A stretch of 64,000 nt of DNA from an uncultured Pelagibacteraceae bacterium (lineage in GTDB: Bacteria; Pseudomonadota; Alphaproteobacteria; Pelagibacterales; AG-422-B15): NCBI GenBank assembly GCA_902610585.1, contig CACLWE010000008.1, positions 1 to 64,000 of the forward strand. Reading direction: 5' to 3'. Positions 40,776 through 42,813 of the stretch are shown here, piece after piece. A model generated the notes under the pieces. It was not told the DNA's origin. It saw only the letters and a list, made by a program, of their open reading frames with translations, and searched no databases. Both the position numbers and the translations under genes were made by a program. The stretch's first letter is position 1. Every line of letters begins with the position of its first letter.

Positions 40776-42089
40776 TTATGCTGCATCTAAAGCATTTTTA
40801 AGGTCTTCGATGATATCATCTATATGTTCTATACCTATTGACAATCTTACATAACTTGGATTAACGCCAGCTGACTCCATATCCTCATCCGATAATTGGG
40901 AGTGAGTCGTTGAAGCTGGATGTATCGCGAGGCTTCGCGCGTCACCTATATTTGCGACGTGATAAAACATATTTAAATTGTTAATAAATTTTTCACCACT
41001 TGCCTTGCCTCCTTTAAGTTCAATACCACAGAGAGCACCGTGGCCACCTTTTAGGTATTTATTAGCCCTTTCTCCTGCTTCGCCTTCATCAAGTCCTGCA
41101 TATATTACTCTCGATACCTTATTGTGGTTAGATAAATATTCAGCAACTTTGGCAGCATTAGAGCAATGCTTTTCCATTCTCAAAGACACTGTTTCTAAAC
41201 CTTGTATTATTTGAAATGCGCTTTGAGGAGGAAGAGCGGGACCTAAGTCTCTAAGTCCGACAAACCTAGCTCTTACGATGTAAGCAATAGGACCAACTGC
41301 TTTAGCAAATTCTGTCCATATCATCCCATGATAGCTTGGATCAGGATTGTTAAGCATTGGCTGTCGCTTAGGGTCCTTAGCCCAATCAAATTTACCACTA
41401 TCAACAATTATTCCGCCAATTGTTGTACCATGGCCACCAATAAATTTTGTGAGTGAATGTACAACGATAGTTGCACCATGTTCAATCGGCTTACAAATGA
41501 CGGGAGCTGCTGTATTGTCTACTATTAGAGGAATATTGTATTCATCTCCAATATCTGCTACTTCCCTTATTGGAAAAACCTTAAGTTTTGGATTCGGTAA
41601 AGTTTCAGCGTAATAAGCACGAGTATTATCGTCAGTCATTTTTCTAAAACTTTCTGGATCTGTTGGATCTGCAAATCTTACTTCAATTCCCAGGTCCTTC
41701 ATTGTATTTGCAAATAAGTTCCATGTTCCACCGTATAAATCTGTAGAACTAACAATATTATCTCCAGATTTAACTAAGTTTTGAATACTTAACATCGAAG
41801 CGGACTGGCCCGAGCTAACACATAGTGCTCCTACTCCTCCTTCCATTGCTGCAACTCTTTTTTCAAGAACATCAACCGTTGGGTTCATGATTCTTGTGTA
41901 AATATTACCAAAATCCTTAGCTCCAAATAAATTAGCTGCATGTTCAGTGTTATGAAACTGATAAGATGTAGTTTGATAAATTGGAACTGCAACAGATGTT
42001 GTAGACGGATCGCTTCTATAATCACCTCCATGCAAAGCAATTGTTTCAGGATTTACAGAATCTGCTGGGTTAAATTTGTTTTTTGCCAT
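40776..42089 (-). CDS. metY: O-acetylhomoserine aminocarboxypropyltransferase (sulfhydrylase)
   Basis: A PLP enzyme of the Cys/Met metabolism family that uses sulfide to turn O-acetylhomoserine into homocysteine. PLP lysine K215 sits in VVHSLTKFIGGHG; other marks are VPIYQTTSYQF near 35-45, NIYTRIMNPT near 62-71 and SSGQSASMLS near 92. I start at the ATG at 42089, giving 437 residues, because it has an AGAGG ribosome site and the frame further upstream runs through a leader RNA structure. MetZ (succinyl-type) is less likely given length and sequence. Confidence 0.92.
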   Translation of the reverse strand: MAKNKFNPADSVNPETIALHGGDYRSDPSTTSVAVPIYQTTSYQFHNTEHAANLFGAKDFGNIYTRIMNPTVDVLEKRVAAMEGGVGALCVSSGQSASMLSIQNLVKSGDNIVSSTDLYGGTWNLFANTMKDLGIEVRFADPTDPESFRKMTDDNTRAYYAETLPNPKLKVFPIREVADIGDEYNIPLIVDNTAAPVICKPIEHGATIVVHSLTKFIGGHGTTIGGIIVDSGKFDWAKDPKRQPMLNNPDPSYHGMIWTEFAKAVGPIAYIVRARFVGLRDLGPALPPQSAFQIIQGLETVSLRMEKHCSNAAKVAEYLSNHNKVSRVIYAGLDEGEAGERANKYLKGGHGALCGIELKGGKASGEKFINNLNMFYHVANIGDARSLAIHPASTTHSQLSDEDMESAGVNPSYVRLSIGIEHIDDIIEDLKNALDAA

Positions 42090-42202
42090 TTTTTTACCTC
42101 TATTTAAATTTCCACGAGTTTCTGCAAACAAAAAAACCGCATCATATTATTATGTGCGGCTGGTGGCTTAGCTGTATAAGTCCGCAAGCTGCATTAAACT
42201 CG
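42090..42202 (-). promoter_or_regulatory. Structured metY leader with terminator/antiterminator pairing
   Basis: Read on the minus strand, the leader holds three segments: A, TGCGG (42186-42182); B, CCGCA (42159-42155); C, TGCGG (42141-42137), followed by seven T (42136-42130). B-C, extended by CAT/ATG, makes a terminator hairpin; A-B makes an exclusive alternative. A 7-base closing helix CGAGTTT (42202-42196) with AAACTCG (42121-42115) brackets the whole. This is the layout of an attenuator or riboswitch. It does not fit the SAM-II or SAM-I consensus as I remember them, so the class is left open. Confidence 0.6.
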
Positions 42203-42308
42203 ACAATATATTGAATAACACTCTAAGACTTATGTAAAGCGTAATAATCCAAAAAGTATTATGATACCAGTATTTAAATATATGAATTTATTATACAAAC
42301 ATATGTTG

Positions 42309-42345: not shown

Positions 42346-42813
42346 ATGACTACATCTAAGATACTTAAGCAAACAGCGTCTCTAAGAAAAGAGGACACAA
42401 AGAAAGATTGGCTCTTGATCGATGCAAAAGACATAGTCTTGGGCAGACTGGCTACAAATGTCTCAAATATTTTAAGAGGAAAGCATAAGCCAACGTATAC
42501 GCCACATGTGGATTGTGGTGACAACGTTGTTATAATTAATGCTGAAAAAATTAAGCTTACGGGAAAAAAACTCGATGACAAAACTTATTATAGACACACT
42601 GGATATCCTGGAGGTATTAAGAGCATCAATGCTAGAAAGATATTAGAGGGAAAATTTCCAGACCGGCTTGTAAGATTAGCTGTTAAGAGAATGATTCCTA
42701 AAGGGCCACTAGGAAGAAAGCAGCTATCTAATATGAAAGTATATGTAGGAGATAAGCATCCACACGAGGCTCAAAATCCTAAAACATATAACATACAGGA
42801 TGTTGTTAAATGA
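42346..42813 (+). CDS. rplM: 50S ribosomal protein L13
   Basis: A large-subunit ribosomal protein. The 155-residue protein has [19 protein letters not shown] near 22-40, [19 protein letters not shown] near 44-62, and [18 protein letters not shown] near 117-134, all standard L13. No Shine-Dalgarno sequence precedes the ATG. Its end overlaps rpsI by four bases, the conserved rplM-rpsI pair. Confidence 0.96.

Follow-up and report, generated by a model that had tools for sequence, protein, structure and literature searches.

In the window analyzed here, i.e., the whole stretch of 64,000 nucleotides, metY lies on the minus strand (40776..42089, with its start at 42089) and encodes an O-acetylhomoserine sulfhydrylase (NCBIfam TIGR01326, 602.7 bits vs. 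a cut-off of 495.1), with the divergent rplM at 42346. The leader of metY, also on the minus strand, contains a Shine-Dalgarno motif recognized from its sequence, GAGG (42097..42100), and begins downstream of a candidate promoter, whose likely -35 box TTTACA (42233..42238) and likely -10 box TTCAAT (42210..42215) are separated by a 17-nt spacer and were assigned by consensus reasoning. Throughout, g1 denotes the window's genus, g8 and g9 its sister genera, and f2 other Pelagibacteraceae, with the basal genera g2 and g5. The window's genome is a SAR11 genome, and its family is that of AG-422-B15. The -35 box is kept in g1 leaders, which share a promoter segment identity of 0.962, and transcription would be expected to start near 42203-42205, the first base of the P1 helix described below; at the start of SAM-II elements, a few nucleotides usually precede P1 (PMC1273637). 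The same rplM-metY intergenic region also contains a near-palindrome, (A)GGTATNATAATACC(T), at 42255-42268 (minus strand GGTATCATAATACT), which is conserved across the window's family, including in members without the riboswitch, and could be an operator or the -10 element of the divergent rplM promoter.

The leader is much more conserved than the gene it precedes. Across 20 genomes of g1, pairwise identity was 0.979 for the aptamer core (scored over GCUUGC...GCUAAGC) and 0.967 for the terminator vs. 0.539 for 175 fourfold-degenerate sites of metY; purifying selection on the leader is thus strong. Its folding energy is not unusual (z -0.71), and it is conservation, not thermodynamics, that makes the leader stand out from chance.

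Terminator, proposed antiterminator and the alternative helix

The earlier note had described three segments, UGCGG, CCGCA and UGCGG, with a U7 run before metY on the minus strand, and we confirmed all of them (42182-42186, 42155-42159, 42137-42141 and 42130-42136, respectively). The latter three belong to an intrinsic terminator (CCGCACAU-loop-AUGaUGCGG plus U7, 42130..42159, minus strand) with an invariant stem (8 of 8 pairs among 16 distinct sequences) and a hairpin energy of -12.0 kcal/mol in the window and -8.3 to -12.3 kcal/mol in the rest of the tested g1 and g8 leaders; a simple terminator scan of the window did not list this hairpin. The first segment, which overlaps P2 and P1 of the aptamer, would be the 5' half of an antiterminator by pairing with CCGCA. 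Duplexes between the terminator 5' arm and the region of the P2 5' strand were computed at -8.6 (g1), -6.9 (g8) and -14.2 kcal/mol (g9, via GCGGCU). Because the aptamer and the antiterminator share bases, they should be mutually exclusive. As the earlier note had read it, this methionine-gene leader has the architecture of a transcriptional riboswitch.

The 7-base helix of the earlier note is also present (CGAGUUU, 42196-42202, with AAACUCG, 42115-42121) but not as the closing helix of the domain or as part of the aptamer. Because its 5' strand doubles as P1 and as the third strand provided by L1 in the aptamer, we consider it an alternative that would form only in read-through RNA. This helix, P0, has its 5' strand at 42188..42202, overlapping P1 and L1, and its 3' strand at 42115..42125, downstream of the terminator (both minus strand), with a duplex energy of -13.3 kcal/mol that 6 of 1000 shuffles equaled. 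Shuffles did as well as the native halves in 0-6 of 1000 cases across g1, in 20-28 of 1000 in g8 (moderate) and in 174 of 1000 in g9, where the native halves were thus no better. Swapping halves between g1 and the degenerate clade described below made the pairing clearly weaker, and cross-clade swaps mostly weakened it. As for covarying pairs, proposed earlier as a check of the structure, they are weak in the main clade, where P0 covaries slightly (one pair, too weak as proof of P0), and are found in a homologous helix of the sister clade.

Proposed pseudoknot core and kinship with SAM-II

The leader is not recognized as a member of any Rfam family: gathering and permissive scans gave chance matches only, with neither SAM_alpha (RF00521) nor SAM_V matching the window leader below E=10, and likewise for RF00521 and the g8/g9 leaders. 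It was the leaders of the sister genera g8 and g9 that made the pattern readable (GUC GAUUUGAUGCA GCUUGC G GAC ACUAACA GCUAAGC), with its elements in the order P1 5' strand, L1 (G-A-UUU), P2 5' strand (UUGC), one base, P1 3' strand, L3, and P2 3' strand (GC-U-AA). In the window, the corresponding minimal SAM-II-like core spans 39 nt on the minus strand (42166..42204; GUC GAGUUUAAUGCA GCUUGC G GAC UUAUACA GCUAAGC), the first two bases of which, G42204 and U42203, fall outside the range reported earlier (42090-42202).

On this strand, P1 pairs GUC (42202..42204) with GAC (42180..42182); GUC is found in intact members, the exception being the leader L052, where P1 is broken, and the 3-bp helix reaches 4-5 bp in some g8 and f2 members, vs. 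5-6 bp in SAM-II. Loop L1 (42190..42201) contains the U-run corresponding to U10-U12, and reads GAUUU in g8, g9 and f2 and GAGUUU in g1, where one extra base, the G of uncertain alignment, shifts the uridines by one; in SAM-II, U10-U12 come one base after G8. P2 is formed by the invariant GCUUGC (42184..42189) and by GC(U)AAGC (42166..42172), in which, based on published contacts (PMC3764141, PMC6061858), the bulged U 42170 corresponds to U44, A 42169-42168 to A45 and A46, and G 42167 takes the position of A47. The overall pattern, GUC-GA(G)UUU...GCUUGC-G-GAC-n7-GC(U)AAGC, is that of the H-type pseudoknot known from SAM-II and SAM-V, here with only 3 bp in P1 and 7 nt in L3: P1 lies directly around L1, P2 pairs UUGC with GC(U)AA around the bulged U44, and all members whose core is intact have these blocks. 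RNAfold alone predicted P2 with its bulged U in g1_L001 and in all three g8 leaders. P1 and P2 show no covariation within the set, as both hardly vary.

The metX leader of the same genome, which is an Rfam SAM-II element, reads GCGCC GAUUUGAGCACA GCUUGC G GGCGC AAUAAAAAUGCA GCUAAAGAGG and has the blocks GAUUUGA, CAGCUUGCGG and CAGCUAA in common with the metY leaders of the sister genera; comparison with the metY leader therefore reveals coinciding blocks, with P1 and L3 shortened in metY. An equally short P1 is found in the metY leaders of the basal f2 genera g2 and g5, most of which carry GCUAAAGCG(G) and have A47 present. A nucleotide profile built from 60 alphaproteobacterial SAM-II cores scored 18.5 (f2 g2), 15.5 and 10.6 (f2 g5), and 13.9 and 12.6 bits (g8), all exceeding 5,500 control shuffles. 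Leaders of g1 and g9 did not get beyond 4-6 bits, the window's genus (4-5 bits) being within reach of shuffles. The top profile match in the 64-kb window is the metY leader site (weak, 4.1 bits), and a search for P1 pairing combined with GA.UUU, CUUGC and GCUAA, the pattern of the pseudoknot, matched the window a single time, at the same leader, vs. one match in 50 shuffled windows. Given the low score of the window element itself, its homology to SAM-II rests on a chain of intermediates. Hence, with a probability of roughly three in four, we favor the reading that the metY leader is a minimal, G47, transcription-terminating riboswitch of the SAM-II type, linked to SAM-II through intermediates and with a ligand and direction that we infer. 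On sequence grounds, it appears to be a previously unrecognized variant of SAM-II and not a new class; that is, of the two possibilities raised earlier, the variant is retained, and a new SAM-, homocysteine- or sulfur-responsive class is not, since the sister-genus intermediates tie the leader to SAM-II.

Position 47, distribution and alternative explanations

The SAM-II pocket comprises U10-U12, U20, U21, G22, C23 and G42-A47, described as completely conserved, with U44 contacting adenine and A47 the amino and carboxylate groups of the methionine moiety (PMC3764141); in SAM-V, changing A50, the equivalent of A47, to inosine caused a severe loss of binding (PMC6061858). The metY element retains these residues except A47, apart from the one-base shift of the L1 uridines in g1. 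Position 47 is G in two g5 leaders and in all leaders of the AG-422-B15 family whose core is intact, vs. A in most basal f2 relatives and in 62 of the 63 SAM-II elements that were parsed from the class. The lone exception among the 63, and further G47 elements found by pattern, precede metK or metY; the pattern search matched 22 genomes vs. 2 with the reversed control, and about half of the matches had a proper P1. Such G47 SAM-II elements before metK or metY occur in several alphaproteobacterial families (L225, L226, L234-L237 and L240-L243, about 1500 bases into each), and we found no remark on a recurrent G47 subtype in the literature searched.

Because longer SAM-II elements upstream of metK and metY show the G47 state as well, the metY leader most likely still has SAM as its ligand. 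G47 with C19 would be compatible with SAM sensing at core genes of methionine and SAM metabolism, perhaps at a different affinity; the probable effect of G47 is a lower or retuned affinity for SAM, not a change of ligand. As to its origin, comparison of the f2 g5 leaders L144 (with A47; GCUAAAGCGG) and L148 (lacking A47; GCUAAGCGG) may hint at the deletion of one A rather than a substitution.

Under the model that we infer for ligand, switching direction and P0, the leader would be a transcriptional OFF switch, with the 39-nt core followed by the rho-independent terminator. At high SAM, the nascent RNA would fold into the H-type pseudoknot through P1 (GUC/GAC) and P2 (GCUUGC/GC[U]AAGC), in which the bulged U would be placed opposite the adenine of SAM and the U-run of L1 would lie in the major groove; sequestration of the GCUUGCGG strand would leave the CCGCA arm free, the terminator would form, and metY would not be transcribed. 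At low SAM, UGCGG would pair with CCGCA, the terminator would fail, and RNA polymerase would read through, after which AAACUCG would pair with CGAGUUU to give P0, a helix that would break up L1/P1 and keep the mRNA in the ON state.

The element was found in 37 of 397 genomes of the order, one copy each, and precedes metY at every inspected site except in G140, whose match is a weak one to an ordinary tandem SAM-II/SAM-V leader. Judged from sequence, such tandem arrangements in Pelagibacteraceae precede a homocysteine S-methyltransferase-like gene (L146, G140:C9) and metY (L046, G042). A covariance model of the element found no second copy in its own genome and none outside SAR11 among 385 genomes of the class, a scan of viral contigs was empty, and the element is absent from L018, L019 and genus g7. 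In the sub-clade of L020-L025 and L054-L056, the promoter region is still there, as is a hairpin, UCGAUGUAAUUG/CAAUUAUCAUCGA, in which three pairs show compensatory changes (1-2 of 500 shuffles), while the bulged U and the terminator are absent; that is, this sub-clade has lost the aptamer and retains only the covarying hairpin. In P. ubique, SAM-V lies at the syntenic position between rplM and metY (PMC2704228), and it is present at the syntenic metY leader in five of the f2 leaders scanned, but a search of 36 genomes from the window's genus, its own genome included, gave no SAM-V match; most of these have one SAM-II, which in the window's own genome precedes metX. SAM-V was also considered as the identity of the window leader and rejected, as there is no model match, no P3 hairpin and no set of 4 pairs below the bulged U.

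Alternatively, the leader could be a SAM-II scaffold with a changed ligand, in which contact with the methionine end is lost through G47 and the molecule sensed is a different adenosyl compound (SAH, methylthioadenosine or decarboxylated SAM), another sulfur metabolite, or SAM with different discrimination. The departure of all intact-core leaders of the family from the A47 of the class (62/63), the retention of the adenine-side residues (UUU, UUGC, bulged U, AA) and the precedent of ligand-switched SAM-I variants (PMC10853860) would all fit such a change. However, G47 elements elsewhere precede metK and metY, which are classical SAM feedback targets, the downstream gene is metY throughout, and near relatives with A47 control the same gene, so we consider a changed ligand unlikely.

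It seems more doubtful still that the leader is a protein-bound or temperature/ion-responsive attenuator that has no small ligand, its likeness to SAM-II being a decaying remnant. The sister clade has lost both aptamer and terminator but keeps its covarying hairpin, and therefore the module can decay; yet the 98% core conservation in intact leaders covers loop bases relevant only to a pseudoknot, and the SAM-pocket residues other than A47 are kept. A constitutive structured 5' UTR, with terminator and helix but no switching, would match the minimum free energy structure, which holds the terminator and P0 together, but is improbable given the homology to a switch class and an antiterminator pairing kept in three genera despite differing terminator loops. 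Leader-peptide attenuation through the short frame present across the core in the window (ATG CAG CTT GCG GAC TTA TAC AGC TAA) was rejected as hardly credible: its ATG is ATA or AAG in many relatives, the frame has no run of Met or Cys codons, and no Shine-Dalgarno motif lies upstream of it.

Significance and comparison with known systems

SAR11 bacteria need reduced sulfur, and metY ranks among the most strongly induced genes of Ca. P. ubique when sulfur is limiting (PMC5069961). For control of metY, SAR11 lineages appear to use SAM-V, a short SAM-II that has A47, the G47 form, which is shorter still, or none of the three, and therefore offer a natural series for the paring-down of a SAM pseudoknot. 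Further, the recurrent G47 state of SAM-II upstream of metK and metY offers a direct way to test what the best-known SAM contact does, and the metY element reveals a blind spot in Rfam models. If the changed-ligand explanation were true, it would, to our knowledge, represent the first ligand switch in the SAM-II/SAM-V family.

Among known systems, the spermidine riboswitch, a SAM-I variant (PMC10853860), is a precedent for SAM aptamers with an altered pocket, but it derives from SAM-I, has an unrelated fold, and no sign of a comparable ligand change was seen in the metY leader. SAM-V (RF01826; PDB 6FZ0) shares the pseudoknot core and a short P1 (4 bp in SAM-V), and occupies the same syntenic rplM-metY position in other Pelagibacteraceae. 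In contrast to SAM-V, the metY element has no P3 hairpin, has 2 rather than 4 pairs below the bulged U, has G at the equivalent of A50, and would control termination instead of the ribosome binding site. With SAM-II (the metA element, RF00521; PDB 2QWY), the element shares L1 G-A-UUU (in g8, g9 and f2), P2 UUGC/GC(U)AA with its bulged U, the adjacent P1, the terminator platform and the association with methionine genes. It differs from SAM-II in its 3-bp P1 (vs. 5-6 bp), its 7-nt L3 (vs. about 10-12 nt) and the G in place of A47, which gives a continuous C-G, G-C extension of P2; in the window's genus, there is also the extra L1 base, and RF00521 fails to detect the element. Finally, the G47 SAM-II elements that other Alphaproteobacteria carry upstream of metK and metY also have C19 opposite G47, so that P2 can continue through position 47, but, unlike the metY-leader element, they have a normal, longer P1.
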